This document shows, one piece after another, positions 4,508 to 24,103 of a stretch of DNA of 64,000 nucleotides. Under the pieces are notes generated by a model. That model saw only the letters and a list, made by a program, of their open reading frames with translations, did not search any database and was not told where the DNA came from. How positions within the stretch are numbered: position 1 is the first letter of the stretch; the number at the start of each line of letters is the position of its first letter. Made by a program: the position numbers and the translations under genes. The stretch is from the NCBI GenBank assembly GCA_947455455.1, contig CANGOE010000003.1, positions 29,520 to 93,519 on the forward strand. Reading direction: 5' to 3'. The DNA comes from Hyphomicrobiales bacterium. GTDB lineage: Bacteria; Pseudomonadota; Alphaproteobacteria; Rhizobiales; Beijerinckiaceae.

Positions 4508-4699
4508 GAAAACAACTCCCAAAAAGACAGAAAGGGGTTTGACGGCGCACAGCACTTATTGTCAAGTACGGAAAGTGATACGGCCCCAGTGTCAGGGATT
4601 GTGTTCCAAGGATATCGGGCCAGCCGTTCGTTCAACCGGAACGGCCGTGAATGATCAGATTACGCTTCGGTGCGGGATGCTCTACAGGGGATGAAAGCA

Positions 4700-5164
4700 A
4701 TGGCTCAACTTGTCATTAACGGGATCAAACAGACGGTATCTGCCGATCCCGATACACCGATTTTATGGGTTCTGCGTGATCTGGGGCTGACAGGCACCAA
4801 ATACGGGTGCGGTGTCGCCCAATGCGGAGCCTGCACCGTGCATATTGACGGCGAGGCGGTGCGGTCCTGCTCCCTGCCGATATCAGCGTTGCAGGATGGC
4901 CAATCCATCACCACCATCGAGGCTTTGGGAGCCGGTGGCAAATTGCACGCCCTGCAAAAAGCCTGGATCGAACTGGATGTGCCGCAATGCGGCTATTGCC
5001 AGTCGGGGCAGTTGATGGCGGCGGCGGCCTTGCTGACCAAATCACCGAACCCGTCCGATGCCGAGATCGACGAAGCGATGACCAATATCTGTCGTTGCGG
5101 CACCTATAACCGTATCCGGGCAGGCATCAAACATGCCGCCGCTTTGCTCACCAAAAAAGCGTAA
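4700..5164 (+). CDS. iorA: Isoquinoline 1-oxidoreductase-type small subunit, [2Fe-2S]
   Basis: A 154-residue iron-sulfur subunit of a molybdenum hydroxylase. It has the plant-type ferredoxin cluster motif ([16 protein letters not shown], about residues 43-58) and the C-terminal helical [2Fe-2S] domain (QCGYCQSGQ and [11 protein letters not shown]). This is the normal length for IorA. The ATG at 4700 follows AGGGGATG; the track ORF starts ten codons early. Only 12 bases separate it from the large-subunit gene, so the two are co-transcribed. It carries electrons from the molybdenum site, probably to a membrane acceptor. The substrate is likely an N-heterocycle or aldehyde, but is not determined by sequence. 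Confidence 0.92.
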
Positions 5165-5176
5165 GGGAGACAGAGC

Positions 5177-7398: not shown

Positions 7399-7427
7399 AT
7401 GCCCGCCCTCGTGGCGGGCATTTTTTT
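7399..7427 (+). terminator. Rho-independent terminator after iorB
   Basis: The stem ATGCCCGCC/GGCGGGCAT with a five-base loop is followed by seven T residues, 38 bases past the iorB stop. The same GCCCGCC-GGCGGGC hairpin without the T run recurs in the adjacent repeat array, so terminator and repeat share an origin. Confidence 0.9.
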
Positions 7428-7439
7428 GTTTTGGACGGT

Positions 7440-7960
7440 CATTGACAGCAAGACGTGGATGGCCGGGACAGGCCCGGCCATGACAGTGTGGGGGGCAATT
7501 ACACCCCGAACCATCCCTGTCATGCCCGCCCATATGGCGGGTACCCACGTCTTGGGCTGGCATTCAGGGACGGTCATTCACAGAAAGTCGTGGATGGCCG
7601 GGACAGGCCCGGCCATGACAGTTGGGGGTGATGGGCGCACCCATTACCCATCCCTGTCATGCCCGCCCTTGTGGCGGGTATCCACGTCTTTATTGGGCTT
7701 TTGAATTAAAGTCGTGGATGGCCGGGACAGGCCCGGCCATGACAGTGTGGGGGGCAATTACACCCCAAACCATCCCTGTGATGCCCGCCCATGACAGTTC
7801 GGGATAAGGCACGCCTCTCCCTCTGTCATGCCCGCCCTTGTGGCGGGTATCCATGTCTTTCTGGCGGTGTTGAAGGAAAGTCGTGGATGGCCGGGACGGG
7901 CCCGGCCATGACAGTGTGGGGGGGATAATCGCACCCACCCCATCCCTGTCAGGTGTTCGC
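7440..7960. repeat. Mosaic array of palindromic extragenic repeats
   Basis: Two palindromic modules alternate. Module A contains GGCCGGGACAGGCCCGGCC and is flanked by GTGGAT and ATGACAG; it occurs at about 7454, 7590, 7713 and 7883. Module B, CATGCCCGCC(N5)GGCGGGTA ending in CCACGTCT, occurs at about 7512, 7650 and 7822, with a truncated copy near 7770. Each A is followed by a GTGTGGGGGGCAATTACACCCC-like linker. Spacings are about 136, 123 and 170 bases. The array fills the gap between iorB and DUF1993. The small ORFs listed here are repeat translations, not genes. Modules like A are widespread in alphaproteobacterial intergenic DNA, by memory rather than by search. Confidence 0.9.
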
Positions 7961-9293: not shown

Positions 9294-10193
9294 ATGTCAT
9301 TATATCACCATGATCTGCAATCCCTGCGGCTGTTTGTCGCCATTTGCCATTTGCGCAGTGTGAGCCGGGCGGCCGAGCAGTTCAATCTGGCCATTTCAGC
9401 GGCCAGCCGCCGCTTGCGTCTGCTCGAGGATGAAGTGGGTGCGTCTCTGGTGACCCGGATGGCGCATGGGGTCGAACCGACCATGGCAGGGCTGACCACC
9501 CTGCGCTATGCCGAAAGCGTGTTGCGTTTGGCCGACGGGTTGGCGGCCAGCATGAGCGAGCATCATTCGGGCGTCAGGGGGCGGGTGCGGGTCTCGGCCT
9601 CCTCCTCGGCGCTGGTGCACCGGCTGGCGGGTGATCTGGCGGAATTTGTGCAAACCCATCCCGATATCCGTATTGATCTGGAAGAACGCCCCTCCGGCGA
9701 AACCATCAGCCAGATGGCGCGCGGACAGGCCGATATGGGAGTCTTCATCCGTGGTGTGCCGACCAGCGGCCTGCAGGTCTGGCCCTATGCGCAGGACAGA
9801 TTGTCGCTGGCTGTCTACCCGACCCATCGGCTCGCCGAACAGGATTCGGTGCAGTTCAGGGATCTGCTGAATGATGATTTCGTGGCTCTCGAAGTCGGCT
9901 CGGCCATTTACCGCCTGATGGCAGAGAAAGCCCGCGAACAGGGCCGCTATCTCAAAACCCGCGTGCAGGTCCGCAGTTTCGAGGTGATGTGCCAGATGAT
10001 CCGCAGTGGCCTGGGGATCGGTATTCTGCCCGAAGAGGCCCTGCGTCCGCTGGCCAGCGCGCTCGGTCTGTCCCTGATCCGGCTGGAGGAAGATTGGGCC
10101 ATCCGCCACATCGATATCGGCGTGCATGCAGGGCATGATATCGCCCCGCCAACCAAGCGTTTGCTCAATGCGCTGTGTGGGGTTGTGCTGTGA
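9294..10193 (+). CDS. LysR-family transcriptional regulator
   Basis: 299 residues, the standard LysR length. The N-terminal winged helix-turn-helix is clear (LFVAICHLRSVSRAAEQFN, then SAASRRLRLLEDEVG). The rest is a periplasmic-binding-like effector domain with HPDIRIDLEERPSGE near residue 120. The ATG at 9294 is chosen because it gives the normal N terminus; the upstream track start lacks support. It lies just before the large catabolic operon in the same direction. Two T-N11-A dyads lie in the gap between them, so it probably controls that operon in response to a pathway intermediate. Confidence 0.9.
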   Translation: MSLYHHDLQSLRLFVAICHLRSVSRAAEQFNLAISAASRRLRLLEDEVGASLVTRMAHGVEPTMAGLTTLRYAESVLRLADGLAASMSEHHSGVRGRVRVSASSSALVHRLAGDLAEFVQTHPDIRIDLEERPSGETISQMARGQADMGVFIRGVPTSGLQVWPYAQDRLSLAVYPTHRLAEQDSVQFRDLLNDDFVALEVGSAIYRLMAEKAREQGRYLKTRVQVRSFEVMCQMIRSGLGIGILPEEALRPLASALGLSLIRLEEDWAIRHIDIGVHAGHDIAPPTKRLLNALCGVVL

Positions 10194-10200
10194 TTATGGT

Positions 10201-10248
10201 TTCTTCAAATTAGAAATCTGCCTGCGTTCTTTTCTTATTTCCAATAAG
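10201..10248 (+). promoter_or_regulatory. Two LysR-type T-N11-A dyads
   Basis: TTCTTCAAATTAGAA (10201-10215) and CTTATTTCCAATAAG (10234-10248) are 15-bp inverted repeats of the kind bound by LysR proteins. Their centres are 33 bases apart, fitting an upstream recognition site and a promoter-proximal activation site. They lie 46 to 93 bases before the acyl-CoA dehydrogenase start. The sites are read directly from the sequence; binding by the adjacent LysR is inferred. Confidence 0.55.
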
Positions 10249-10293: not shown

Positions 10294-11463
10294 GTGCCGA
10301 TATCGATCCCTCTCTATGATGACCACAAGGATTTGCGCGAGGCTGTTGCGGCTTTGTGCGGCAAGTTCGACGGCGCCTATTGGCGCGAGATCGACGAGGA
10401 GCGCGGTTATCCCGAAGCCTTCGCCAAAGCCTTGACCGAGGCCGGCTGGCTGGCCGCTCTGATTCCCGAAGAATATGGCGGGGCAGGGCTGGGGCTGACA
10501 GAAGCCTCGATCATCATGGAAGAGATCAACCGTTCTGGCGGCAATTCCGGTGCGGTCCATGGGCAGATGTATAATATGTCGACCCTGTTGCGGGCCGGTT
10601 CCGAAGACCAGAAAAAGAAATATCTGCCACGCATTGCCGCAGGTGAATTGCGGATGCAGTCGATGGCGGTGACGGAACCGACCACGGGCACCGATACGAC
10701 CAAGCTCAAAACCACTGCCACCCGTCGCGGCAATCATTTCGTGCTCAACGGACAGAAGGTCTGGACCTCGCGTGTGCAACATTCCGATCTGATGATCGTG
10801 CTGGCCCGCACCACGCCGCTCGATCAGGTGCGCAAGAAATCGGAAGGCCTGTCGGTGTTTCTGGTCGACATTGCCGAGGCGATGGACAAGGGCATGACCG
10901 TGCGGCCGATCCGCAACATGGTCAACCATGAAACCAATGAAGTGTTTTTCGATGATCTGGAAGTGCCAGCCGAAAACATGATCGGCGAGGAAAACAAGGG
11001 CTTCCGCATCATTCTCGAAGGGTTGAATGCCGAACGGGTGCTGATTGCCGCCGAATGTATCGGGGATGCCTATTGGTTTATCGACAAGGCCTCTGCCTAT
11101 GGCAAGGAACGGATCGTGTTCGACCGGCCGATCGGCCAAAATCAGGGGATCCAGTTCCCGATTGCCAAATCCCACATTGCCACCAAGGCCGCCGATGCGA
11201 TCCGCTATCAGGCGGCGGCCCTGCATGATGCCGGTTTGCCCTATGGCACCGAGGCCAATATGGCCAAAATGCTGTGCGCGGATGCCTCGTGGGAAGCGGC
11301 CAATGCCTGTTTGCAGACGCATGGCGGCTTCGGTTTTGCCGCCGAATATGATGTGGAACGCAAATTCCGTGAAACCCGCCTCTATCAGGTTGCGCCCATC
11401 TCGACCAATCTGATTTTGGCCTATGTCGGCGAGCATGTGCTCGGCCTGCCGCGCTCGTACTGA
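10294..11463 (+). CDS. Acyl-CoA dehydrogenase
   Basis: 389 residues with a GTG start and GAGG eight bases before it. It has the family's N-terminal helical domain (LIPEEYGGAGLGLTEA), the middle beta domain (MAVTEPTTGTDT, GQKVWTS) and the C-terminal helical domain (QTHGGFGFAAEYDVERKFRE). It would oxidise an acyl-CoA to the enoyl-CoA using FAD and pass electrons to ETF. The usual medium-chain catalytic glutamate position holds Pro368 (YQVAPIS). However, Glu247 in NAERVLIA sits where isovaleryl-CoA and long-chain dehydrogenases keep their base, so it is probably active. It is the first gene of a ten-gene operon. Confidence 0.92.
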   Translation: MPISIPLYDDHKDLREAVAALCGKFDGAYWREIDEERGYPEAFAKALTEAGWLAALIPEEYGGAGLGLTEASIIMEEINRSGGNSGAVHGQMYNMSTLLRAGSEDQKKKYLPRIAAGELRMQSMAVTEPTTGTDTTKLKTTATRRGNHFVLNGQKVWTSRVQHSDLMIVLARTTPLDQVRKKSEGLSVFLVDIAEAMDKGMTVRPIRNMVNHETNEVFFDDLEVPAENMIGEENKGFRIILEGLNAERVLIAAECIGDAYWFIDKASAYGKERIVFDRPIGQNQGIQFPIAKSHIATKAADAIRYQAAALHDAGLPYGTEANMAKMLCADASWEAANACLQTHGGFGFAAEYDVERKFRETRLYQVAPISTNLILAYVGEHVLGLPRSY

Positions 11464-11472
11464 GGGATGGTG

Positions 11473-12756
11473 ATGGCAGTCAGCGGATCGACCAGACCGA
11501 CACTGCCACTTCCCCCCTTGCCGACGGGCGCTCCGACTTTGGATGCCTATGGGGCTTTTGTCGCTCCTGCGCCGGACGTGGTTGCTGGGCATGGTGTTCT
11601 GGCGGGTGTGTCGCTGGCGATCAAGGATCTGCTGGTCTTTGGTGACCGGGTCCCGCTCTGCGGGCTGTCGGCGGCTCCTTTCGAGGCTCTCGGCCCTTCA
11701 TCGCCTGTTGTGGCCCGTCTGGTGGGTGAGGGGGCTTCGTTTGCCGGTTTTACCACACTGACGGCGCTGGCCTACGAGCCTTCGGGCGTGAATATCGATG
11801 GCACAAGGCCGCGTAATCCGTGGCATGGCGATTATATTTGCGGCGGGTCCAGTTCGGGTTCGGCTGTCGCAGTGGCGGCGGGGCTGGTTGATCTGGCGCT
11901 GGGATCCGACACCGCGGGTTCGTTGCGGATTCCAGCCCAATGTTCTGGCGTGGCTTCATGGAAGCCAAGTTTCGGCCTGTTGTCGCTTGAGGGCGTGATG
12001 CCTTTGGCTCCTTCGCTGGATTGCCTTGGGTTTATGGCCCGCGATGCGGATTTGCTGGCGCTTGTCGCCGGATTGTTTGCCGAACCGGCCCGCCATGTGG
12101 CTCGCGTGGCTGTTGCGCGCGATCTGCTCGCAGGATGCGATCCCGACATTGCCGCAATGGTCGAACGCACCATCCAGATGCTTGATCGCTTGGAGATCGC
12201 AAGGCGGGATGTGGCGATCAGACCGCTTGTGGCGCAAGCCGATGCACCGGTGTTCCGGCTCCTGATGGGCGAGGCCTATCGCTCCTTTGCGCCATTGTTA
12301 CACAGCACTAGGTTGCCTGCCGAATTGGCCAAGCGTCTGGACAAAGGATCAGCCGTGTCCGATGCCGATCTGGTGCAGGCCCGTGATGCGCTGGATGGTC
12401 TTCACAGCGAATGGTCCACCGCGCTGTTTGCCGACAATGACTGTCTGCTCCTGCCGGTGATGCCTGTCACAACACCGACGGTTGATGCCTGCACACAGGG
12501 CCATGCCGATTTTGCCCCGCGCCATCTCTATGCGCTGTCGGAATTCACCCGCTTTGTGAACGGGCTTGGTTTGCCCGCTGTCGCCCTGCCGATGGGATGT
12601 GATACACGCGGCTTGCCGATGGCGATGCAGTTGGTCGGGCCGAAAGGCTCCGATCGGGCCTTGCTGGCACTGGCCGGACAGTTGCAGACCTTGCGCGGGG
12701 AATTCAACGCGCCTGTTTCTTTTCCCTCCGATCCATCGGGTAAGATTGCACCATGA
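11473..12756 (+). CDS. Amidase-signature hydrolase
   Basis: 427 residues. All parts of the Ser-cisSer-Lys triad are visible: Lys in AIKDLLVF, the cis-Ser region GGSSSGSAVAVA, and the nucleophile in GSDTAGSLRIPA. Such enzymes hydrolyse carboxamides to the acid plus ammonia or amine, and resemble AtzF and GatA. The ATG at 11473 has GAGGG seven bases upstream; the track's start at 11467 is too close to that site. It lies 9 bases after the acyl-CoA dehydrogenase and overlaps the CoA-transferase gene by four bases (ATGA). The context suggests release of a free acid that is then activated as a CoA ester. Confidence 0.92.
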   Translation: MAVSGSTRPTLPLPPLPTGAPTLDAYGAFVAPAPDVVAGHGVLAGVSLAIKDLLVFGDRVPLCGLSAAPFEALGPSSPVVARLVGEGASFAGFTTLTALAYEPSGVNIDGTRPRNPWHGDYICGGSSSGSAVAVAAGLVDLALGSDTAGSLRIPAQCSGVASWKPSFGLLSLEGVMPLAPSLDCLGFMARDADLLALVAGLFAEPARHVARVAVARDLLAGCDPDIAAMVERTIQMLDRLEIARRDVAIRPLVAQADAPVFRLLMGEAYRSFAPLLHSTRLPAELAKRLDKGSAVSDADLVQARDALDGLHSEWSTALFADNDCLLLPVMPVTTPTVDACTQGHADFAPRHLYALSEFTRFVNGLGLPAVALPMGCDTRGLPMAMQLVGPKGSDRALLALAGQLQTLRGEFNAPVSFPSDPSGKIAP

Positions 12757-13946
12757 CAAGTCCGACAAAACCGACAGCTTTGGATCATTTGCGCGTGCTG
12801 GATCTGACACGTGTCAGGGCAGGGCCGACCTGTTGCCGGATTCTGGCCGATTTCGGGGCCGATGTGATCAAGATCGAGGCCCCCGACGGGGTGGATCCGA
12901 ATGAGGGCATGTCCGGTCCGCGTCTTGGCTATGACATGCAAAACCTGCATCGCAACAAGCGGTCGATCACCCTCAATTTGAAAAAGCCGGAAGGCCTGTC
13001 GGTCTTTATGGATCTGGTGCGCAAGGCCGATGTGGTGGTCGAAAACTACCGCCCCGATGTCAAAGACCGGATGGGCATCGATTATGAATCCCTGAAATCG
13101 GTGAACCCGCGCATTATCCTGTGCTCGATTTCCGGTTTCGGGCAGGACGGGCCCTATCGCAACCGCGCCGGATTTGACCAGATCGCCCAGGGCATGGGCG
13201 GGTTGATGTGGGTCACGGGCTTGCCCGAACAGGGGCCGGTGCGTGCAGGGATTGCGGTCGCCGATACATCGGCAGGGCTTTATGCCGCAACCGGTATTCT
13301 GGTGGCGCTGGCGGAGCGCGAAAAATCCGGCCTTGGCCAATGGGTGCATACCTCTTTGTTGCAGGCCCAGATTGCCGTATGCGATTTTCAGGCGGCGCGC
13401 TGGCTGGTTGACCATGCCGTGCCGCCGCAAGCAGGCAATGACCATCCCTATTCAACCCCGATGGGGGTGCTGGCCACGATCGACGGGTATATCAATCTCG
13501 GTGTCGGTGGTGACGGCCAGTGGCAGGCCCTGTGCGCGGCCATGGAAAGGCCCGATCTGGCCGCTGATCCCGATTATCTGACACAAACCGAGCGCTTCAA
13601 ACACCGCCAGCAATTGATGCCGATCCTCGCAGAGATTTTTGCCACCGAGACCTCGGCCCATTGGCTCTCTTTGCTGGAACGGCACGGCGTGCCGTGCGGG
13701 CCGATCTATAAAATGGACGAGGTGTTTGCCGACCCGCAGGTCCGGCATCTGAAGATGGCCGAGAGCGTGGCCCATCCCGATTTGGGCGAGATCGAACTGG
13801 TGGCACAACCGCTCGTCCTCTCGCGCACGCCGGCCGCCTTGATGTATCCTTTGCCAGCCAAAGGCGCACAGACCGAAGCTGTGTTGCGTGAGGCAGGCTA
13901 TGATGACGACAGCATTTCCCGTTTGCGCCATGCGCAAGTGGTCTGA
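12753..13946 (+). CDS. CaiB/BaiF (family III) CoA-transferase
   Basis: 397 residues. The characteristic N terminus (LRVLDLTRVRAGPTCCRILADFGADVIKIE) is present, as are NKRSITLNLKKPEG, VVVENYRPDV and the GFGQDGPY segment. The aspartate expected to form the acyl anhydride probably lies in AVADTSAG, near residue 171. These enzymes move CoA between carboxylic acids without ATP. Translational coupling with the upstream amidase suggests that the acid it releases is activated here, but the CoA donor and acceptor cannot be read from the sequence. Confidence 0.92.
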   Translation: MTSPTKPTALDHLRVLDLTRVRAGPTCCRILADFGADVIKIEAPDGVDPNEGMSGPRLGYDMQNLHRNKRSITLNLKKPEGLSVFMDLVRKADVVVENYRPDVKDRMGIDYESLKSVNPRIILCSISGFGQDGPYRNRAGFDQIAQGMGGLMWVTGLPEQGPVRAGIAVADTSAGLYAATGILVALAEREKSGLGQWVHTSLLQAQIAVCDFQAARWLVDHAVPPQAGNDHPYSTPMGVLATIDGYINLGVGGDGQWQALCAAMERPDLAADPDYLTQTERFKHRQQLMPILAEIFATETSAHWLSLLERHGVPCGPIYKMDEVFADPQVRHLKMAESVAHPDLGEIELVAQPLVLSRTPAALMYPLPAKGAQTEAVLREAGYDDDSISRLRHAQVV

Positions 13947-13961
13947 GCCGGAGAACCGTGG

Positions 13962-14804
13962 ATGAGCGATAGCCAGAGCGCCAAGATCCCAAAAGATCTG
14001 ATCCAAAAAGACGCGTTGCCTGCCTGTCGCATCCGCTACGAGGTCGAGGGGGCCGTGGCCCGTCTGATTATCGACCAGCCGCAACGGATGAATGCCATGG
14101 CTTTGACCATGTGGGAGAGCCTGCCTGAATTGCTGGCGCGGGCCGAACAGGATCCGGCTGTTGTCTGCATTAGCGTGGAAGGCGAGGGCGAACGGGCTTT
14201 TTGTGCCGGCGCTGATATTTCGCAATTCGGTGATAACCGTTCGGGGGCCGATGCGGTTGCCCATTATGACAGGGCTGTGGAGGCGGGCAATCGGGCTTTG
14301 GCGGAAGTGTCCAAGCCGACTATTGCTGTCATTCGCGGCGTTTGCTTTGGCGGCGGTTTCGGACTGGCGCTGTGCTGTGATTTGCGCATTGCGCGGGACG
14401 ATGCCCGCTTCCGGATTCCTGCGGCCCGGCTGGGCCTCGGTTATGGTTTTGCCGGGACTGAATTGCTGGTGCGTAAACTCGGCATGGGTCCGGTCGCCGA
14501 TCTTTTGTTGAGTGCGCGCATCATCGGAGCGGATGAGGCCAAAAGCATGGGCATTATCAATGCCCTGTTTGCCCGTGAGAGCTTCGAGCAGGAGGCCGCC
14601 GCCTATCTGGCGCGGATCGCCGCCAATGCGCCTATTACCCTGAAAGCCACCAAACGGGCTTTGATCGAACTCACGCGGAACGAAACCGCACGCGACATCA
14701 GTGCTGTCGATGCCTTGGTCAGCCAAGCCTTTGCCAGTGCGGATTATCTGGAGGGCCAAGCGGCCTTTCGGGACAAACGGGATCCGGTTTTCAAAGGAGC
14801 ATAG
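13962..14804 (+). CDS. Enoyl-CoA hydratase/isomerase-family (crotonase-fold) protein
   Basis: 280 residues. The crotonase fold and oxyanion hole are intact (FCAGADISQFG; GVCFGGGFGLALCCD). The two glutamates that make a true hydratase are absent: the first position is Gly134 (GGGFGLA, where hydratases have GGxxELA) and the second is Ala154 (IPAARLG, where they have PEILLG). The 20-residue spacing matches the canonical pair, so the alignment is firm. It should still bind an acyl-CoA and stabilise an enolate. Likely reactions are isomerisation, C-C or thioester cleavage, or dehalogenation-type chemistry rather than simple hydration. It is embedded in the operon 15 bases after the CoA-transferase. 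Confidence 0.88.
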   Translation: MSDSQSAKIPKDLIQKDALPACRIRYEVEGAVARLIIDQPQRMNAMALTMWESLPELLARAEQDPAVVCISVEGEGERAFCAGADISQFGDNRSGADAVAHYDRAVEAGNRALAEVSKPTIAVIRGVCFGGGFGLALCCDLRIARDDARFRIPAARLGLGYGFAGTELLVRKLGMGPVADLLLSARIIGADEAKSMGIINALFARESFEQEAAAYLARIAANAPITLKATKRALIELTRNETARDISAVDALVSQAFASADYLEGQAAFRDKRDPVFKGA

Positions 14805-14834
14805 TCGGATCACACTGGGGCAACAAAGGATAGG

Positions 14835-15827
14835 ATGATCAAGATGAAGCGTCGAAGCATTCTCAAGGCTACACTGGCTCTTTCCATGGCCAGCGCACTT
14901 CCTGCCGTCGCATTTGCACAGACGGCAGCCCTGAATCCGCCAGTCAGTCTGACCGTCGGCTACCAGAAGGTCGGACATCTGGCACCGATGATTCTGATTG
15001 CCGATGATCTGAAAAAGCAGGGTGTCGACATCAAGCTGGTTGAATTCGCCCGTTATGCCGATGCCCGCACCGCCTTGCTGGCCGGATCGCTGGATGTGGC
15101 CTCGATCGGTCCTGCCGATCTGGCGATTGCCCTGGCCAATGGCTCGACCAATCTGGTCGGGATCATGGGTGTCGGTTCCTCGCCCAAATATGTGATTGCC
15201 AAAAAGGGTCTGAAATTCGATTCATGGGATGACATCAAAGGCAAAAAGATAGCCATTGCGCCCGGTTCCGCCGTCTGGTTCCAGTTTGCCGCAACCCTGA
15301 CCGAGAAGGGAATTCCCTATAATTCCTTCAATTCGGTCAATATTCAGGGTGGCGGGGCCAATTTCGATGCCGCTTTGGAAAAAGGCGAAGTCGATGCCAT
15401 CGTGACATGGGAACCGTTTGAATCGATCCCGGTCATGAAGGGGTACGGTTATTTCGCCAAAAATCTTGATTATTCGATCTCCAAATCGGTCGGAGCCGAA
15501 TTGGGCATGCTGGCGGCGAGCAAGGAGGTTGCCACCTCCAAGCGTGCGGCTGTCGAGCGCGTGGTCAATGCCTATGTCGCCAAGATGAAAGAGCTTGAGG
15601 CTTCGCCGGCCAAATTCGGCACGGCCATTGCCCAGTTGACGGGCCTTGAAGCCGATGTTTCGGCTGAAATTGCCAAAGTGATCAAGCTCGGCCCGGTGAT
15701 TACCCCGGACCAGATCAAGCGTCAGGCCAAGGCCTTCAATGAATTGGGCGTGATCCCGAAAGATGTGTCCGGTGACATTGAAAAATACTGGGATGCCAGT
15801 TTCCTCGATGCGGCCATGAAGAAATAA
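14835..15827 (+). CDS. ABC transporter substrate-binding protein, SsuA/TauA/NMT1-like
   Basis: 330 residues with a signal peptide (MKRRSILKATLALSMASALPAVAFAQ). The mature protein has the SsuA/NMT1-like pattern: LTVGYQKVGHLAPMI at the start, DVASIGPADLAIALANG, then GVGSSPKYVIAKKGLK and a second lobe with VDAIVTWEPFES. Relatives bind nitrate, taurine, alkanesulfonates, cyanate or pyrimidine precursors in the periplasm. AAAGGATAGG precedes the start. The permease and ATPase follow directly. Presence inside a CoA operon implies the ligand is the pathway's substrate, which is probably not sulfonate because no monooxygenase or sulfatase is nearby. Confidence 0.9.
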   Translation: MIKMKRRSILKATLALSMASALPAVAFAQTAALNPPVSLTVGYQKVGHLAPMILIADDLKKQGVDIKLVEFARYADARTALLAGSLDVASIGPADLAIALANGSTNLVGIMGVGSSPKYVIAKKGLKFDSWDDIKGKKIAIAPGSAVWFQFAATLTEKGIPYNSFNSVNIQGGGANFDAALEKGEVDAIVTWEPFESIPVMKGYGYFAKNLDYSISKSVGAELGMLAASKEVATSKRAAVERVVNAYVAKMKELEASPAKFGTAIAQLTGLEADVSAEIAKVIKLGPVITPDQIKRQAKAFNELGVIPKDVSGDIEKYWDASFLDAAMKK

Positions 15828-15911
15828 GCATCGGGTCGTCATGACTAACCGGCGGGCGGATCATCCTGCCCGCCGGTGACTTGCCCGATCCATCGGGTTT
15901 TTGCGGGGGGT

Positions 15912-16763
15912 ATGATGTCGAAAGCCGAAAGCAAAACTGTGTCGCTGGTCCCGGCCCAATTATGGGGACGGTTGCGCAAAACCGTGCTGGCACTGGTTCT
16001 GCCTGTCACACTCGTCTGGCTGTGGCAGTTGGCGGGCACCGACGGGGCGATTGCCGGAGGCGCTTTGCCGACACCGGACCGTGTCTGGGCGGCGTGGATG
16101 AAATGGGCTTTCGGCACCTCGACCTTCGGCCTCAATCCCTATATCGGCACATGGACGCAAAGCCTGTGGTTTTCTGCCGGACGGGTGGTCTACGGTTTTG
16201 CGATAGCGATTGCGGTGGGCGTGCCGATCGGCATGATCATCGGCTGGTCCAAACTGGCTTCGGCGATGATCGACCCGACCATCCAGTGGTTGCGGCCGGT
16301 GCCGATTACCGCATGGTTGCCGATTTCCATTGCGATTTTCGGGATTCGTGATTTCGGTGCGGTGTTTCTGATCACCATCGGGGCGTTCTATCCGATTGTC
16401 ATCAACACAACCCAAGGCACGCGCGATGTCGATAAAAACTGGATCCGCGCCGCGCTGATGATGGGGGCGGGACAGCGCGATGTTCTGACCCGTGTGGTTC
16501 TGCCTGCGGCCTTGCCGTCGATTTTTACCGGATTGCGGATCGGTCTGGGGATCGCCTGGACGGCGGTGATCGTGTCAGAGATGGTGGCGGTCAAATCCGG
16601 TCTCGGTTACGTCCTGTGGGATGCCTATTATGTCGGGCGGATGGATATTGTGATCGCCGATATGGTGTCGATCGGTCTGATGGGCTTTTTGTCCGATCTG
16701 CTGATCGTTTCCATTGAAATCTGGGCGCTGCGCTGGCGTCGCCTGCAATCTTTCGACGCTTGA
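15912..16763 (+). CDS. ABC transporter permease, SsuC/TauC-like
   Basis: 283 residues from the ATG at 15912 (15915 is equally possible; GGGGGG lies just upstream). It has about six membrane helices. The BPD permease coupling loop is visible in AALMMGAGQRDVLTRVVLPAALPSIFTGL. It forms the membrane channel for the binding protein upstream and pairs with the ATPase 14 bases downstream. The track start at 15876 adds an unlikely N terminus. Confidence 0.92.
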   Translation: MMSKAESKTVSLVPAQLWGRLRKTVLALVLPVTLVWLWQLAGTDGAIAGGALPTPDRVWAAWMKWAFGTSTFGLNPYIGTWTQSLWFSAGRVVYGFAIAIAVGVPIGMIIGWSKLASAMIDPTIQWLRPVPITAWLPISIAIFGIRDFGAVFLITIGAFYPIVINTTQGTRDVDKNWIRAALMMGAGQRDVLTRVVLPAALPSIFTGLRIGLGIAWTAVIVSEMVAVKSGLGYVLWDAYYVGRMDIVIADMVSIGLMGFLSDLLIVSIEIWALRWRRLQSFDA

Positions 16764-16777
16764 GCAGGGCCATGGTG

Positions 16778-17536
16778 ATGATCAACTTTTCAAAAGTCTC
16801 GAAGGTCTATGGCGGTGCGCAGGGTGTGCGGGCGCTGGATCAGGTCGATTTCAGTGTGGCCGAGGGCGAATTTGTCGCTTTGCTCGGCCCCTCCGGTTGC
16901 GGCAAATCCACCTTGCTCAATCTCGTCGCCGGTTTCGAAAAACTGACCGAGGGCGAGATGCTGTTTGACGGACAGGCCGTATCGCGGCCCGGTCCCGATC
17001 GCGGTGTGGTGTTTCAGGAAGCCTCGCTTCTGCCCTGGTTGACGGTGTGGGAGAATGTGGTGTTCGGCCCGAAAGTGCAGGGCCTGATGCGCAATGAATA
17101 TGAGCCGCGCGCCCATGAGATCCTGAAAATTGTCGGGTTGGAGGCCTTCCACAAGGCGCTTCCGGTGCAATTATCGGGCGGGATGCGCCAGCGTGTCGGC
17201 ATTGCGCGCGCTTTGGTGATGCAACCCAAAGCCCTGTTGATGGACGAGCCATTCGGAGCGCTGGATGCCCAGACCCGCCTGTCGATGCAACAGCTGTTGC
17301 TGGAGGTGTGGCAGAGGCTGAAAACCACCGTGCTGTTCGTCACCCATGATATCGACGAGGCGATTTTGCTGGCCGACCGTGTCTGCGTAATGACCGCCAG
17401 ACCGGGCCGCATCACCAAGGAAATTCCGATTGATTTGCGCCGTCCGCGTTCGATCGACGATCTGACCAACAGTGAGTTTACCCACTTCAAGGCGCAGATC
17501 ATGACCGAAATGCGCGGTGCCCATGATCCGCATTGA
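16778..17536 (+). CDS. ABC transporter ATP-binding protein, SsuB/TauB-like
   Basis: 252 residues. Walker A is GPSGCGKST, the signature LSGGMRQRVGIARAL, Walker B ALLMDEPFGALD and the switch histidine is in FVTHDIDEA. It energises the importer with the preceding permease and binding protein. The start is uncertain between ATG 16772 and ATG 16778; the latter gives a better nine-base distance from AGCAGG. The track start is a TTG further upstream. Confidence 0.93.
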   Translation: MINFSKVSKVYGGAQGVRALDQVDFSVAEGEFVALLGPSGCGKSTLLNLVAGFEKLTEGEMLFDGQAVSRPGPDRGVVFQEASLLPWLTVWENVVFGPKVQGLMRNEYEPRAHEILKIVGLEAFHKALPVQLSGGMRQRVGIARALVMQPKALLMDEPFGALDAQTRLSMQQLLLEVWQRLKTTVLFVTHDIDEAILLADRVCVMTARPGRITKEIPIDLRRPRSIDDLTNSEFTHFKAQIMTEMRGAHDPH

Positions 17537-17552
17537 TAAAGGAGTCTGATTG

Positions 17553-18428
17553 GTGGCCAATCCTCGTATTCCCTATGTGATGTCGTCCGAACATCCCAAA
17601 TTGCCGCCGATGCAGGGCAAGCGCATTTTGGTGCATCTGGTGGTCAATGTCGAACACTGGCAGTTCGACCATGCCATGCCGCGCACCATCATCACCCCGC
17701 CGCATGGCCGCGAAACCGTGCCCGATGTGCCCAATTTCTCGTGGGCCGATTACGGCATGCGCGCCGGCATGCCCCGCCTTCTGGATCTGATCACCTCGCG
17801 CGGTCTGCCTGCCTCCACCAGCTTCAACGCCGGTGTGATCGATGCCTATCCGCAAGCCGCCGCGGCGATGCGCGATGCGGGCTGGGAATTTATCGGCCAT
17901 GGCATGCACCAAAAAGCCACCAACCATGTCGAAGGCGGGGAGGCGGCGCTGGTGCGGGCCTGTCTCGACAAGATCGAGGGCTTTACCGGCAAGCGTCCGC
18001 GCGGCTGGCTGTCGCCCGGCTTGCGCGAAACGGTTGATACGCCCGATGTTTTGAAGACGGCGGGGCTGGATTATGTCTGTGATTGGGTGGTCGATGATGT
18101 GCCCAACTGGATGAACACCACCTCCGGCCCGCTGATGGCCATGCCTTACAATCTCGAAATCAACGATTCCATCGTCTATGCGATCGAGCGCCACGCCACC
18201 GGCGAAATGCTCAAGCGTCTGGCCTTTACGCTGGAGCAATTCGAGCAGGAAAGCCGTGACACCGTGCGCGTGCTGGCGATTGGCCTGCATCCGCATCTGA
18301 TTGCGGTTCCGCACCGCATCCATGAATTGGCGGGCATGCTCGATCTGTTGATGGCCAGCAAAAACACTATTTTCACCACCGGCGAAGGCATTTGCGACTG
18401 GTATGCGCAAGCCTGTCCCGCCCGCTAA
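17553..18428 (+). CDS. Polysaccharide-deacetylase-fold hydrolase (PuuE/imidase type)
   Basis: 291 residues, probably from a GTG with AAGGAG eight bases upstream (TTG 17550 is an alternative). It has the deacetylase-fold pattern of the PuuE allantoinase and cyclic-imide hydrolase branch: NVEHW and PDVPNFSWADYGMRAG near the N terminus, GHGMHQKATNHVEGG, the RGWLSPGLRET signature, and GLHPHLIAVPHRI. Members hydrolyse C-N bonds of small ring compounds such as allantoin or imides rather than sugars. There is no signal peptide, so it acts in the cytoplasm, as fits catabolism. In this operon it may open a cyclic amide before the amidase acts; this is inference. Confidence 0.85.
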   Translation: MANPRIPYVMSSEHPKLPPMQGKRILVHLVVNVEHWQFDHAMPRTIITPPHGRETVPDVPNFSWADYGMRAGMPRLLDLITSRGLPASTSFNAGVIDAYPQAAAAMRDAGWEFIGHGMHQKATNHVEGGEAALVRACLDKIEGFTGKRPRGWLSPGLRETVDTPDVLKTAGLDYVCDWVVDDVPNWMNTTSGPLMAMPYNLEINDSIVYAIERHATGEMLKRLAFTLEQFEQESRDTVRVLAIGLHPHLIAVPHRIHELAGMLDLLMASKNTIFTTGEGICDWYAQACPAR

Positions 18429-18435
18429 GGATGTT

Positions 18436-19206
18436 ATGATGGACCTTCAACTTTCCAATCGCCATGTGCTGATCACCGGTGGCTCCAAGGGAATCGGTCT
18501 GGCCTGTGCGCGCACCTATCTGGAGGCCGGTTGCTCGGTCACACTGGTGGCGCGCGATGCCGGACAGCTCGAACAGGCCAAATCCAGCCTCAAAGCCCCC
18601 GACAAGGTCCGCATCATCCCTGTCGATCTGTCTCAGGATCAGGAGCGCGAGCGCGTCTACCATCTGGTGCGCGATGTCGATATTCTGGTCAACAATGCCG
18701 GTGCGATCCCCGGCGGTGGCCTGCTCGATCTGTCGATGGCCCGCTGGGAGCAGGCCTGGGCGCTGAAAGTGCTGGGCTATATCCATCTGACCCAACTCTA
18801 TCTGGCCGATATGAAAGCCCGCCAAAGCGGCATCATTTGCAACATCATCGGGTCGGCGGGACGCAATCCGCGCTATGATTATGTTTGCGGAGCGACAGGC
18901 AATGCGGCGCTGATGGCCTTTACCTCGGCGATTGGCGGCAAATCGGTGGATTGGGGGGTGCGGGTGTTCGGCATCAACCCGTCCCCGACCAAAACCGACC
19001 GGATGATCACATTGTCCAAAGCCAAGGCCAAGGATTTGTGGGGCGATGAAAGCCGCTGGCAGGAGGTGCCTGCCGACCGGCCGCTGGGGCGGATGATCGA
19101 GCCGGAGGAAATCGCCCATATGGCGGCTTTTCTGTCCTCGCCGGCCTGCGGCTATGTCAGCGGGACGGTGGTTGATGTGGATGGCGGACTTTCGTTCAGG
19201 GGATGA
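18436..19206 (+). CDS. Short-chain dehydrogenase/reductase with atypical active site
   Basis: 256 residues from ATG 18436 (18439 is possible). The cofactor motif TGGSKGIG and the NNAG motif are intact, as is the active-site serine region (NIIGSAG, Ser140). The catalytic Tyr-x-x-x-Lys is not: the segment reads RYDYVCGATGNAALM, with Cys or Ala where lysine should be four residues after either tyrosine. Other SDRs I recall share this YxCG(S/A)xGN pattern, so it may define a subfamily rather than a broken gene. It is probably an NAD(P)-dependent oxidoreductase of a CoA or hydroxy intermediate. It overlaps the MaoC gene by four bases. Confidence 0.88.
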   Translation: MMDLQLSNRHVLITGGSKGIGLACARTYLEAGCSVTLVARDAGQLEQAKSSLKAPDKVRIIPVDLSQDQERERVYHLVRDVDILVNNAGAIPGGGLLDLSMARWEQAWALKVLGYIHLTQLYLADMKARQSGIICNIIGSAGRNPRYDYVCGATGNAALMAFTSAIGGKSVDWGVRVFGINPSPTKTDRMITLSKAKAKDLWGDESRWQEVPADRPLGRMIEPEEIAHMAAFLSSPACGYVSGTVVDVDGGLSFRG

Positions 19207-19715
19207 AGATGACAATCAAAGCAGGCTGGAACGGGCGGTTTTTCGAGGATTTTACGGTTGGTGATGTCTATAAACATCCCTTGGGCCGCACGATCACGGC
19301 AACCGACAATGCATGGTTCACCATGCTCACGCTCAACACCGCCCATCCCCATTATGATGCCAATTATGCGGCCCATACCGCTTTTGGCAAACCGCTGGTC
19401 AATTCCTGTTTCACCCTGTCACTCGTTACCGGCCAATCGGTCACCGATGTGTCGCAAAATGTGTTCGCCAATCTGGGTTGGGACGAGGTGCGTCTGCCCA
19501 ATCCGGTCTATGAGGGCGATACGATCTATGCCGAAAGCGAGGTGCTGGAGTTGCGCCCTTCCGGTTCGCGGCCCGAATTGGGGATCGTGACCATCAAAAC
19601 CATCGGATACAATCAGGACGGGACCATTGTTGTCAGTTTCAAGCGCACTTTGATGGTGTATCGCCAAGGTCAGGGACCGGGCGGCAAGTATCGGCCGGAA
19701 CCAAAACGCGGATAA
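19203..19715 (+). CDS. MaoC-family hydratase (mesaconyl-CoA hydratase-like)
   Basis: A 170-residue hot-dog-fold protein. The segment ITATDNAWFTMLTLNTAHPHYDANYA resembles the active-site stretch of beta-methylmalyl-CoA dehydratase/mesaconyl-CoA hydratase and of NodN-like proteins. It keeps the histidine (HYD) but has Asn where R-hydratases have Asp. It would add or remove water on an acyl-CoA, possibly supplying the hydratase function that the operon's crotonase cannot perform. The ATG overlaps the SDR stop (ATGA). It is the last gene of the operon; about 40 bases downstream an FNR box begins the next unit. Confidence 0.9.
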   Translation: MKMTIKAGWNGRFFEDFTVGDVYKHPLGRTITATDNAWFTMLTLNTAHPHYDANYAAHTAFGKPLVNSCFTLSLVTGQSVTDVSQNVFANLGWDEVRLPNPVYEGDTIYAESEVLELRPSGSRPELGIVTIKTIGYNQDGTIVVSFKRTLMVYRQGQGPGGKYRPEPKRG

Positions 19716-20636: not shown

Positions 20637-20656
20637 CTTTTGTTTGAAACGTCACA

Positions 20657-20684
20657 AAAGCGGGGTTTTTGCCCCGCTTTTTTG
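20657..20684 (+). terminator. Rho-independent terminator after the Usp gene
   Basis: AAAGCGGGG-TTTTT-CCCCGCTTT-type stem-loop (AAGCGGGG/CCCCGCTT) followed by a T run, starting 20 bases past the stop codon. Confidence 0.92.
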
Positions 20685-20771
20685 TTGGCCAATTCTCATG
20701 GCGGTATAAACGGATTGGCAAATTCAAATTTGAGGGTATTTTACAGGCTTGATTTGACGGGATGTTTGTCC

Positions 20772-21032
20772 ATGCCAACGATCAGTGCATTTTATGGCAT
20801 CCTCATTCGGATGTTTTTTAACGATCACGAACCAGCGCATTTTCATGTGCAATATGCGGAATATCAGGCCACGGTAGACATTGCTTTACTCAAGATTGCC
20901 ATTGGTGAATTGCCTCGCCGAGCACAGGAACTCGTGCTTGATTGGGCGGAACTGCATCAGCAAGAATTCCTGGATGATTGGCGATTGTGCATGAACAAGC
21001 AACAGCCCAATCCGATTGCTCCTTTGAAGTGA
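20772..21032 (+). CDS. DUF4160 family protein
   Basis: 86 residues; the ATG at 20772 gives the family's typical N terminus, MPTISAFYGILIRMFFNDHEPAHFHVQY, with the conserved HxPxHFH-like patch. The rest contains LPRRAQELVLDWAELHQQEF. Pairs of DUF4160 and DUF2442 genes are common in bacterial chromosomes and are often discussed as toxin-antitoxin-like modules, though activity is generally unproven. The partner starts eight bases downstream. The ATG lacks an obvious strong ribosome binding site. Confidence 0.9.
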   Translation: MPTISAFYGILIRMFFNDHEPAHFHVQYAEYQATVDIALLKIAIGELPRRAQELVLDWAELHQQEFLDDWRLCMNKQQPNPIAPLK

Positions 21033-21040
21033 GGCCAACC

Positions 21041-21295
21041 ATGAACTGGGATGTGATCGAAGTCGAACCTGCCGGCCCTTTGGCTCTCAAGGTTCAATTT
21101 GCTGACGGTACCAGAGGCAGGGTGGTGTTCGAGCAAAGTCATCTGACGGGTGTGTTTGCGGCTCTCAAAGATCTAGCCGTTTTCAAAAAAGCCCATATTG
21201 TCGGCGGGGCAGTGACGTGGCCCGGGAATGTCGATCTTGCACCGGATGCCATGCACCAAGCCATCCTTGCGCAAGGGGAATGGATTTTACGTTAA
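21041..21295 (+). CDS. DUF2442 family protein
   Basis: 84 residues. The family pattern is clear: an N-terminal beta region (WDVIEVEPAGPLALKVQFADGTRGRV), then GVFAALKDLAVFKKAHI and the hallmark TWPGNVDLAPDAMH. GTGAGG lies six bases before the ATG. It is the usual companion of DUF4160 and forms a two-gene unit with it. Confidence 0.93.
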   Translation: MNWDVIEVEPAGPLALKVQFADGTRGRVVFEQSHLTGVFAALKDLAVFKKAHIVGGAVTWPGNVDLAPDAMHQAILAQGEWILR

Positions 21296-21433
21296 ATCAC
21301 GCTTTGCCGGATGTTGCATTGCAAAAACGCATATCTGCCCGTCTTTTGTATAATGTTGCACTGCACAATAATCCTTGGTCATTTTGCCAAGCTATGACAT
21401 AATTCTGCCTTGAGGATTTCAGAGAGTATCGAA

Positions 21434-21751
21434 ATGAGCAAAGGTACGGGCAATAGCAGTGAAGCGGTCTGGAACACCAAATACGGCACGCGACGGGTCA
21501 GGGTTGATCTGCCGACCGTTCAGGAAGCCGTGTTTGCCGCCCAGGGTCTGACCGATGATCTCGAGGAACAGGTTGAAATCGCCGCCGCGTTGATCGGGGC
21601 GGGCGAGGACGAGGTTCGCGCTGAAATCGCGCGTTCCAAGAATATCCGTCAGGTAAGGGTGCGCCCGCGCAGTCCGACCGATTTTCCTTCCGAGCCACGC
21701 ACTTTTGTGGTCGAGCGCAAGGGTGTCCGGCGCTCGCTCATGAATTCATGA
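21434..21751 (+). CDS. Hypothetical protein, 105 aa
   Basis: The start is taken at ATG 21434 (MSKGTGNSSEAVWNTKYGTRRVRV). The protein has a central acidic helical part (LTDDLEEQVEIAAALIGAGEDEVRAEIARS) and a basic C terminus (QVRVRPRSPTDFPSEPRTFVVERKGVRRS). No signal peptide or membrane helix. I recognise no family. Its 3' end overlaps the end of the opposing monooxygenase gene by six bases. It lies 138 bases after DUF2442 and may belong to a separate unit. Confidence 0.6.
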   Translation: MSKGTGNSSEAVWNTKYGTRRVRVDLPTVQEAVFAAQGLTDDLEEQVEIAAALIGAGEDEVRAEIARSKNIRQVRVRPRSPTDFPSEPRTFVVERKGVRRSLMNS

Positions 21752-24067
21752 GTGTTTGTGGCTTTTCGGACGGGCTTTCAGCTTCATTTCAATCAAATCC
21801 GATTTTTCACGCGGCACATTGCGGGTGATTTGCGCCCAGCCCGGTGCATAGGACGGCGGCACTTTGACCTCGGCCCCGTACCACGCCGCGCCGCGCAAGG
21901 CGAAGGCGGGATCAACCAGATGCGGACGGCCAAAAGCCACCAGATCGGCACGGGCGGCCGCAACAATCGTATGGGCCTGATCGACGCTGGTGATATTGCC
22001 GACGCACATGGTGGCCACATGCGCCTCGTTGCGGATCTGGTCCGAATAGGGGGTCTGGAACATCCGGCCATAGACAGGGCGTGACAGCGGCGCGGTTTGA
22101 CCGGTCGAGACATCGACCAGATCAACGCCGGCTTGGGCAAAATGACGGGCAATCTCGACCGATTCCTCGTCGCTGATCCCGCCTTCCATCCAGTCGGTTG
22201 CCGAAATACGCACCGACATCGGCTTATGGGCAGGCCATGCGGCCCGCATCGCGCCAAACACTTCCAGCGGATAGCGCAGGCGGTTTTCGAGAGGGCCGCC
22301 GTAATTGTCCTTGCGCTGGTTGGTGACCGGTGACAGGAAACTGGCCAGCAGATAGCCATGGGCGGCGTGCATTTCCACCATATCGAAACCGCAAGCCTCG
22401 GCCCGATGCACAGCGGCAACAAATTGATCGCGCACCTGATCCATATCGGCGCGGGTCATTTCGCGCGGCACCTGACTTTCGGGGTAATAGGGCAGTGGCG
22501 AGGCCGAAACAATCGGCCATGCGCCGGTGTCCAGCGGCCTGTCCATGCCGTCCCACATCAGCTTGGTTGCACCCTTGCGGCCTGCATGGCCGAGTTGCAG
22601 GCAGATTTTTGCGCCCGATTGCTGATGGACGAAATCGACAACCCGCGTCCATGCGGCCTGTTGCTCATCCGTCCACAAACCCGCACAGCCCGGCGTGATG
22701 CGGGCTTCGGCGCTGATGCAGGTCATTTCGGTAAACAGCAGGCCGACACCGCCCATGGCGCGCGAGCCATAATGGACCAGATGGAAATCGGTCAGCACAC
22801 CGTCATGGGCCGCATACATGCACATCGGCGAGACCACGAGACGGTTGGAAAGCGTCATATCGCGCAAGGACAGAGGCTGGAAGGCCGGGCTTTGCGGCTT
22901 CTCGACATCAACATCATGCCCCAAGGCTTTGATCTGCTTGGCAAAAGTCTTGTCGATTTGCTTGACGAAATCCGGCGCACGCAGGGCCAGATTGTCATAG
23001 GTGATCGATTTGGAACGGGTCATCAAGCCAAAGGCGAATTGCACGGGATCGAAATCGAGGAAGCGTTTGACATGTTCGAACCAGACAAGGCTGACTTCGG
23101 CGGCGTGCTGGGTTTTTTCGACCTCTTCGCGGCGGCCGAATTCGAAATCGGCCAAAGCCTCCGCCATCTTGCCCTGGCTGCGCTTGAGACAATCATGCAG
23201 GCTGATGGCATCTTCCATCGCCAGCTTGGTGCCGGAACCGATGGAGAAATGCGCCGTTGACTTGGCATCGCCCAGCAACACCACGCGGCCATCCATCGTG
23301 CAATGCTTGTTGCGGATGGTGGGGAACTGCCGCCAGATCGAGCGGTTGGCAATCAGACGATGGCCCTGCAACTCGTCCTTGAACACGTTTTCGAGGAAGG
23401 CGGTGCTGTCCTCCTGCGACATGGTTTCAAGGCCAGCGGCGGCAAAGGTTTCGGGATCGGTTTCCAGGACCCAGGTCGAACGGCCCGCTTCATATTGATA
23501 GCAATGGGCGATGAACACCCCGAATTCGGTTTCCTTGAAGTAGAAGGTGAAGGCATCGAAGGGACGTGTCGAGCCCATCCAGCAGAAACGGTTGGGACGC
23601 AAGTCGATCTGCGTGCCGAAATGGCTTTCATTGGCTTGGCGCAACAGCGAGTTCAAGCCATCCGCCAGCACCACCAGATCGGCTTCGGCCTCGGTCGGCA
23701 TGGTGGTCAATTCCTGCTCGAAGGAGAGGTTGATCCCCAAGCCTCTGGCGCGTTCCTGCAACAGCATCAGCAGGGTTTTACGTGAACAGCCGCAAAAGCC
23801 GTTGCCGCCGATCCGGAAATTCTCGCCCCTGATCTCGACGGCGATATCATCCCAATAGGCAAAAGCCTTGGTGATCGCCTCGTAGCTTTCGCGGTCGGCC
23901 TTCTCGAAATTATCAAGCGTCTGATCCGAAAACACCACGCCGAAACCGAAGGTGTCATCGGCCTTGTTGCGCTCGATCACATGGATATCGGCCTGCGGAA
24001 AAGATTTTTTGACAAGAATGGAGAAATATAGCCCGGCAGGTCCGCCACCAATGACTTTAATGCGCAT
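21746..24067 (-). CDS. Fused FAD monooxygenase/old yellow enzyme (salicylyl-CoA 5-hydroxylase or 2-aminobenzoyl-CoA monooxygenase/reductase type)
   Basis: 773 residues in two parts. Residues 1-380 are an aromatic-ring FAD hydroxylase: GGGPAGLYFSILVKK at the N terminus, LADGLNSLLRQ, and GRVVLLGDAKSTAHFSIGSG near residue 270. Residues 395-773 are an NADH:flavin oxidoreductase of the old yellow enzyme family (RDMTLSNRLVVSPMCMYAAHDG, LQLGHAGRKG, VEMHAAHGYLLASFLSP, YGGPLENRLRYPLEV). Named relatives are SdgC-type salicylyl-CoA 5-hydroxylase and 2-aminobenzoyl-CoA monooxygenase/reductase. It would hydroxylate, and possibly reduce, an aryl-CoA. No CoA ligase is adjacent. GGAG precedes ATG 24067; the track start is eight codons early. 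Confidence 0.9.
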   Translation of the reverse strand: MRIKVIGGGPAGLYFSILVKKSFPQADIHVIERNKADDTFGFGVVFSDQTLDNFEKADRESYEAITKAFAYWDDIAVEIRGENFRIGGNGFCGCSRKTLLMLLQERARGLGINLSFEQELTTMPTEAEADLVVLADGLNSLLRQANESHFGTQIDLRPNRFCWMGSTRPFDAFTFYFKETEFGVFIAHCYQYEAGRSTWVLETDPETFAAAGLETMSQEDSTAFLENVFKDELQGHRLIANRSIWRQFPTIRNKHCTMDGRVVLLGDAKSTAHFSIGSGTKLAMEDAISLHDCLKRSQGKMAEALADFEFGRREEVEKTQHAAEVSLVWFEHVKRFLDFDPVQFAFGLMTRSKSITYDNLALRAPDFVKQIDKTFAKQIKALGHDVDVEKPQSPAFQPLSLRDMTLSNRLVVSPMCMYAAHDGVLTDFHLVHYGSRAMGGVGLLFTEMTCISAEARITPGCAGLWTDEQQAAWTRVVDFVHQQSGAKICLQLGHAGRKGATKLMWDGMDRPLDTGAWPIVSASPLPYYPESQVPREMTRADMDQVRDQFVAAVHRAEACGFDMVEMHAAHGYLLASFLSPVTNQRKDNYGGPLENRLRYPLEVFGAMRAAWPAHKPMSVRISATDWMEGGISDEESVEIARHFAQAGVDLVDVSTGQTAPLSRPVYGRMFQTPYSDQIRNEAHVATMCVGNITSVDQAHTIVAAARADLVAFGRPHLVDPAFALRGAAWYGAEVKVPPSYAPGWAQITRNVPREKSDLIEMKLKARPKSHKHS

Positions 24068-24103
24068 GACACTCTCCACCTCAGGAACCATTCGTAAAAA
24101 TAG

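Follow-up and report, generated by a model that had tools for sequence, protein, structure and literature searches.

The beta-oxidation of benzylsuccinate (the Bbs pathway) acts on a substituted dicarboxylic acid and employs a class III coenzyme A (CoA)-transferase, an acyl-CoA dehydrogenase (ACAD), a crotonase, and a short-chain dehydrogenase (SDR). Bacterial nicotinate and picolinate clusters that follow maleamate routes encode a flavin monooxygenase, a maleate-isomerase-like protein, and an amidase. In the nicotinate pathway of the fungus Aspergillus nidulans, the imidase HxnM opens 3-hydroxypiperidine-2,6-dione and the amidase HxnN deamidates the product (PMC9304392). Here we describe a ten-gene operon at positions 10294-19715 of a 64,000-nucleotide stretch of contig CANGOE010000003.1 from a Hyphomicrobiales bacterium (this whole stretch is referred to as the window). 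We judge the operon to be of a kind that joins hydrolytic ring opening to CoA-dependent beta-oxidation. On balance, we favour a LysR-controlled catabolic operon for an N-heteroaromatic (pyridine-type) substrate, an oxidised, imide-like form of which is ring-opened. A pyridine-type original substrate is most likely because, in related genomes, a flavin monooxygenase and an isomerase-like protein belong to the same regulon.

The source genome is incomplete (2.7 Mb, 86% complete, 127 contigs), and its close relatives are metagenome-assembled genomes (MAGs) of lake Hyphomicrobiales. An earlier reading of the window, made from the letters alone (the sequence-only reading), had described ten same-strand genes at this locus with gaps ranging from overlapping to 84 bases. 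Checks of open reading frames (ORFs) and of Pfam families agree on ten plus-strand ORFs, which belong in order to the families ACAD, amidase, CoA_transf_3, ECH_1, NMT1-type, BPD_transp_1, ABC_tran, Polysacc_deac_1, adh_short, and MaoC. The overlaps and short gaps also hold (+3, -4, +15, +30, +81, -4, +13, -26, and -4 bases from gene to gene), the maximum of 84 hinging on which permease start is chosen.

A single scan of one-per-species genomes with the PuuE-like hydrolase of the operon as query returned 149 relatives, the best 80 of which (65-97% identity) were taken as loci. These come from Hyphomicrobiales (Beijerinckiaceae-like MAGs, Bosea, Rhodoplanes, Azorhizobium, Jiella, and Aurantimonas), Rhodospirillales (Azospirillum and several MAGs), and Burkholderiales (Limnohabitans, Hylemonella, Polaromonas, and other MAGs). 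Gene content was counted in the 45 full loci, those flanked on both sides by 5.5 kb or more: 43 have the importer, 42 the amidase, 41 the CoA-transferase, 38 the SDR, 36 the crotonase, 26 LysR (upstream and co-directional), and 17 the ACAD. Gene order is retained as well, so the comparison of genome neighbourhoods that the sequence-only reading had proposed as a check finds both gene set and order kept across alpha- and betaproteobacteria. Chance is excluded, since the same set and order recur in dozens of genomes of three orders together with a conserved LysR box. Its occurrence is rare and patchy: among 398 genomes sampled from the phylum, no other gave a match with E under 1e-100. One copy of the operon is located on a large Azospirillum plasmid. 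The operon is an accessory catabolic unit that has probably moved horizontally.

The LysR-family regulator (9294-10193, +; PF00126 and PF03466, with in-frame starts further upstream from 9240) ends 100 bases before the first operon gene, which encodes the ACAD. Of 31 regions separating LysR from the first operon gene, 27 contain the 15-mer TTC[GT]N7[CA]GAA, against a mean of 0.2 and a maximum of 4 in shuffled sequence; this pattern was drawn up after inspection of the same regions, making the exact significance optimistic, though the margin is large. In the window the operator reads TTCTTCAAATTAGAA (10201-10215, no strand assigned) and lies 79 bases ahead of the ACAD start. The regulator is likely an activator of the operon. 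The palindrome CTTATN5ATAAG at 10234, the first candidate for the LysR box, is carried by no relative, and the conserved 15-mer was preferred.

A second strict box is found in two Rhodoplanes loci (related to each other, not independent), about 90-105 bases ahead of a module encoding a maleate-isomerase/EutA-like protein (c12), a flavin monooxygenase (c13), and a binding protein (c10). With 57 strict boxes in 1.26 Mb of background, the chance of one so placed is roughly 0.5%. Because the box also precedes this module, oxidation of an N-heteroaromatic ring is probably a function of the wider regulon. The module also neighbours the operon elsewhere among alpha- and betaproteobacterial loci (c12 in 12 and c13 in 10 of the 45). 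The c13 monooxygenase is nearest to PnpA and HspB (hydroxypyridine hydroxylase), and a pyridine-type substrate is therefore favoured for the loci that carry it. Molybdenum hydroxylase subunits adjoin the operon in L034, L065, and L067. Four of five genomes of the window's genus carry, on a different contig, a distant monooxygenase/isomerase pair (36-37% and 28-29% identity); its link to the operon is uncertain because it sits inside a parallel CoA-transferase/SDR/MaoC/PrpD cluster that has no PuuE.

Other oxidative genes occur nearby or in the same genome. Upstream of the operon, 4670-7360 (+) encodes an isoquinoline-1-oxidoreductase-type molybdenum hydroxylase of two subunits, which has a twin-arginine-like leader, and a pair 66% identical to it is located after the operon in L030. 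The gene at 21746-24091 (-) encodes a fused flavin monooxygenase/old-yellow-enzyme protein that exceeds the cutoff set by NCBIfam for bifunctional salicylyl-CoA 5-hydroxylase/oxidoreductase. This anthraniloyl/salicylyl-CoA monooxygenase was rejected as a clue to the substrate: it is linked to the operon in just two loci of the same genus, L024 and L029, and is missing from L027, an 81%-identical relative. Elsewhere in the genome, L134 (G000:C23:14000-33500) encodes a flavin monooxygenase, a maleate-isomerase-like protein, a polyamine-type importer, MmgE/PrpD, SDRs, a MaoC-like protein, a crotonase, and a CoA-transferase, with no PuuE-like gene.

The gene at 17550-18428 (+; PF01522) encodes the PuuE-like, NodB-fold hydrolase, predicted to open the ring of a cyclic amide or imide. 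The best PDB matches (Foldseek) of its AlphaFold model (pLDDT 79.7) are the PuuE allantoinases 1z7a and 3cl6 (TM 0.82, E about 1e-17), to which it is about 24% identical over the structural alignment. phmmer gives 66.5 bits to PuuE and 31.7 to HpPgdA (3qbu). The HpPgdA-style metal motif H-x3-H is absent: His117 is invariant, and the residue four positions on is Gln121 in all 25 aligned sequences. Given the alignment and fold match to PuuE, a score below the allantoinase cutoff, and Gln121 in place of the second metal histidine, we place the protein in a small-molecule, PuuE-like branch.

PuuE allantoinase being the closest solved fold, the protein could instead act like an allantoinase on a cyclic ureide or hydantoin, with the amidase as an allophanate or ureido-acid hydrolase; allophanate hydrolase is indeed among the better matches of the amidase. 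The protein, however, reaches only 102.1 bits against the PuuE allantoinase family (TIGR03212, cutoff 424.6), a small ureide skeleton would need no ACAD, crotonase, hydratase, or SDR, and urate and allantoate genes were not recognised among the conserved neighbour clusters. We regard such a ureide route as improbable. An allantoinase in a purine route was rejected on the same cutoff and with no purine genes recognised among those clusters.

Two further PuuE-like paralogues in the same genome (40% and 37-38% identity; L112 on G000:C47 and L113 on G000:C59) are accompanied by genes for a luciferase-type monooxygenase and a PcaD-like hydrolase, or for an isochorismatase-type hydrolase. It seems that, in this family, PuuE-like genes are markers of several clusters for ring opening. 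On the Rhodococcus pyridinivorans plasmid pGZ01 (L106), a distant PuuE-like gene that is apparently split in two lies close to an N-carbamoylsarcosine amidohydrolase-like gene and a ring-hydroxylating dioxygenase, and insertion sequences are found nearby.

The amidase-signature hydrolase (11467-12756, +; PF01425) is predicted to be a half-amidase. At least 97% of 42 sequences share its Lys53, Ser128-129, and Ser152, and its presence in 42 of the 45 loci supplies the amidase-signature partner of a cyclic imidase of the HxnM or Pseudomonas putida YZ-26 type. The HxnM/HxnN pair is the strongest outside support for the proposed mechanism. The importer consists of a binding protein of the NMT1/SsuA superfamily (14835-15827, +; PF13379/PF09084), a permease (15909-16763, +; PF00528, its ORF open from 15876), and an ATPase (16760-17536, +; PF00005). 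The description of this importer as SsuABC-type holds as a superfamily label, but every NCBIfam score is under its cutoff (the binding protein reaches 118.4 bits against SsuA, TIGR01728, cutoff 163.5). A sulfonate importer was rejected for this reason, and the label should not suggest sulfonates.

Two minimal loci, L035 and L040, contain only the amidase, importer, and PuuE-like genes, and uptake, ring opening, and deamidation are therefore tied together. Three others (L087, L091, and L097) carry the CoA-transferase (CaiB), PuuE-like, and ACAD genes with neither importer nor amidase, which ties the PuuE-like hydrolase to the CoA steps. The minimal loci could also be read as one of two pathways sharing a transcript: nitrogen scavenging from imides or amides by importer, PuuE-like protein, and amidase, and the degradation of a branched acyl-CoA unit by CoA-transferase, ACAD, crotonase, SDR, and MaoC. 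A parallel CoA-transferase/SDR/MaoC/PrpD set on G000:C23 that has no PuuE fits this division as well. It is hard to reconcile with L087, L091, and L097 or with the presence of CaiB alongside PuuE in 41 of the 45 loci, however, as these tie the halves together across both classes, and we give the division little credence. Uptake, ring opening, amide hydrolysis, and CoA transfer, as the sequence-only reading had envisaged, thus fit the minimal loci, the HxnM/HxnN precedent, and the conserved residues of the CoA-transferase and amidase, while the choice of imide, lactam, or ureide as substrate class is still an inference.

The CoA-transferase (12753-13946, +) belongs to class III (family III), with 404 bits to PF02515 and a catalytic residue, Asp171, that at least 98% of 47 sequences retain. 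Its best PDB match is human SUGCT (9br7), and it is closest to the succinate-glutarate and hydroxymethylglutarate (HMG) transferases; the best NCBIfam match, succinate-glutarate CoA-transferase (NF052585, SucGlutTfs), scores 326.6 bits against a cutoff of 750. The ACAD (10294-11463, +; Pfam) has Glu247 as its predicted base, of the isovaleryl-CoA dehydrogenase (IVD) type. Aligned with what we take to be the active-site fragments of IVD and medium-chain acyl-CoA dehydrogenase (MCAD), it has Glu in the IVD E254 column and Pro in the MCAD E376 column, each in 30 of 30 sequences. Glutaryl-CoA dehydrogenase was rejected as its identity, Pro replacing the Glu of the E376-type position; the enzyme is unlikely to have that activity and may prefer branched acyl-CoA substrates.

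These residues bear on a further possibility, that the compound imported is itself a saturated imide of a simple kind, for instance glutarimide or a substituted succinimide, and that the window organism meets no aromatic ring. The imide would be converted to the half-amide, dicarboxylate, dicarboxyl-CoA, enoyl-CoA, hydroxyacyl-CoA, and ketoacyl-CoA in turn, with the crotonase as a decarboxylase. This gives every operon enzyme a place and agrees with the nearness of the CoA-transferase to glutarate and HMG transferases, with the minimal importer-amidase-PuuE loci, and with a window that has no close monooxygenase or isomerase homologue. Plain glutaryl-CoA is nevertheless unlikely with an ACAD lacking the Glu of glutaryl-CoA dehydrogenases at the MCAD site, and the monooxygenase module linked to the operon in relatives is left unexplained. 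We think a saturated imide rather unlikely, though worth keeping in mind.

The crotonase-fold protein (13962-14804, +; PF00378) lacks the hydratase glutamates. With columns placed by what we take to be the rat enoyl-CoA hydratase sequence, E164 is replaced by Ala or Gly in 36 of 36 sequences, and the E144 column holds Gly in 26, Glu in 8, and Met in 2. A canonical enoyl-CoA hydratase, which has two catalytic glutamates, was accordingly rejected, and hydration must come from MaoC or its substitutes. Tyr161 and an R-x-P...LGLGY motif are invariant; judged by eye, Tyr161 presumably lines up with the Tyr that is catalytic in methylmalonyl-CoA decarboxylase, which hints at chemistry of the decarboxylase type. 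Folding of the protein gave generic crotonase matches only.

The MaoC-fold hydratase (19203-19715, +; PF01575/PF19315) falls in a RipB/Ich-like group, scoring 197.7 bits against itaconyl-CoA hydratase RipB/Ich (NF038241, cutoff 340). Its gene is not fixed: L024 and L029, of the window's genus, have no room for it between the SDR and USP genes. Nineteen loci carry one hydratase-type family and none carries two, namely MaoC as in the window (5), the HTD2-like MaoC relative c14 (6), or the canonical crotonase c15 (8), which suggests a single hydration step filled by different enzymes. The SDR (18403-19206, +; PF00106) scores 360 bits against the PRK06125 subfamily, above the cutoff of 261. The outline given by the sequence-only reading is supported in part, but its "modified beta-oxidation" calls for two amendments: the operon crotonase is no hydratase by its residues, and the ACAD base is of the isovaleryl-CoA rather than the glutaryl-CoA type.

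The gene set, its conservation, the LysR box, the active-site residues, and the fold of the PuuE-like protein are shown here, whereas the favoured pyridine-type substrate, the chemical steps that follow, and their order are inferred. The ATP-binding cassette importer would bring in a small nitrogen-containing ring compound, and an aromatic ring could optionally be oxidised by the monooxygenase and, in L034, L065, and L067, by the adjacent molybdenum hydroxylase. The PuuE-like hydrolase would then open a ring C-N bond to give a half-amide, which the amidase would convert into ammonia and a dicarboxylic (or substituted) acid. The CoA-transferase would form the CoA ester, followed by dehydrogenation by the ACAD, hydration (by MaoC here and other families elsewhere), and oxidation by the SDR. 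The unusual crotonase would take one further step, perhaps decarboxylation.

Several findings weigh against this proposal. No thiolase or CoA-lyase gene is among the ten, and none of the operon enzymes scored above the cutoff of an NCBIfam equivalog from which a substrate could be named. The PuuE-like protein stands closer to allantoinase than to HpPgdA, which is the closest relative of HxnM with a solved structure. Only a minority of loci carry the monooxygenase/isomerase module, and the same holds for the molybdenum hydroxylase genes; moreover, the window has no close monooxygenase/isomerase homologue linked to the operon. Most loci are from MAGs, and the mutual exclusivity of the hydratases is confounded with taxonomy.

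The literature searched (subscription papers thinly covered) yielded no operon of this kind and no pathway with such a gene set, as the sequence-only reading, which could match it to none, had suggested. We raise only tentatively that this is a bacterial route for N-heteroaromatic acids not described before, in which a PuuE-like imidase, not a dioxygenase, opens the oxidised ring, followed by CoA transfer, branched-type dehydrogenation, and decarboxylation by the crotonase. The comparison brings several genes annotated as "polysaccharide deacetylase family" or "CoA transferase" in Azospirillum, Azorhizobium, Rhodoplanes, Bosea, and Limnohabitans together in a single testable pathway, and with a conserved operator and culturable hosts, discovery of the substrate by induction or mutant growth should be straightforward.

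Two other features of the window were noted. Between the operon and the fused monooxygenase, 20640-21751 (+) holds short genes, the first two with lower third-position GC and the first with DUF4160, possibly a mobile or toxin-antitoxin-like insertion. The intergenic stretch at 7399-7938 is repetitive, with overlapping short similar ORFs (MAGTGPAMTVWG-like) on both strands, and resembles alphaproteobacterial palindromic repeats.

Among described systems, the fungal nicotinate pathway likewise pairs an imide-ring hydrolase of the NodB/PuuE superfamily with a subsequent amidase-signature enzyme and, as a further likeness, has a molybdenum hydroxylase, flavin monooxygenases, and a ketoreductase associated with it. 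The window protein, however, is closer to PuuE, while HxnM is related to HpPgdA and the P. putida imidase, and the fungal route, which lacks a CoA-transferase, ACAD, crotonase, and MaoC, stops at hydroxyglutarate. The operon suggests that the hydrolytic opening of imide-type rings, established for nicotinate in fungi, has a CoA-linked counterpart in bacteria. PuuE allantoinase (TIGR03212; 3cl6, 1z7a) shares the fold and the aligned motifs HG, DDxPxW, PYxLxxND, and GLHxxLI, but the window protein scores far beneath the family cutoff and lies in a different operon. The CoA-transferase, ACAD, and SDR of the Bbs module are all present, with the hydratase function provided by MaoC; unlike Bbs, the window has a crotonase without hydratase glutamates, a single-subunit CoA-transferase gene, and no thiolase gene among the ten, and adds importer, imidase-like, and amidase genes. 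Related loci share the flavin monooxygenase, maleate-isomerase-like gene, and amidase of maleamate-route clusters, but extradiol dioxygenase and deformylase were not recognised, and ring opening appears to be hydrolytic. The operon resembles an imidase/amidase pair united with a benzylsuccinate-type CoA module, and has full membership in none of these pathways.

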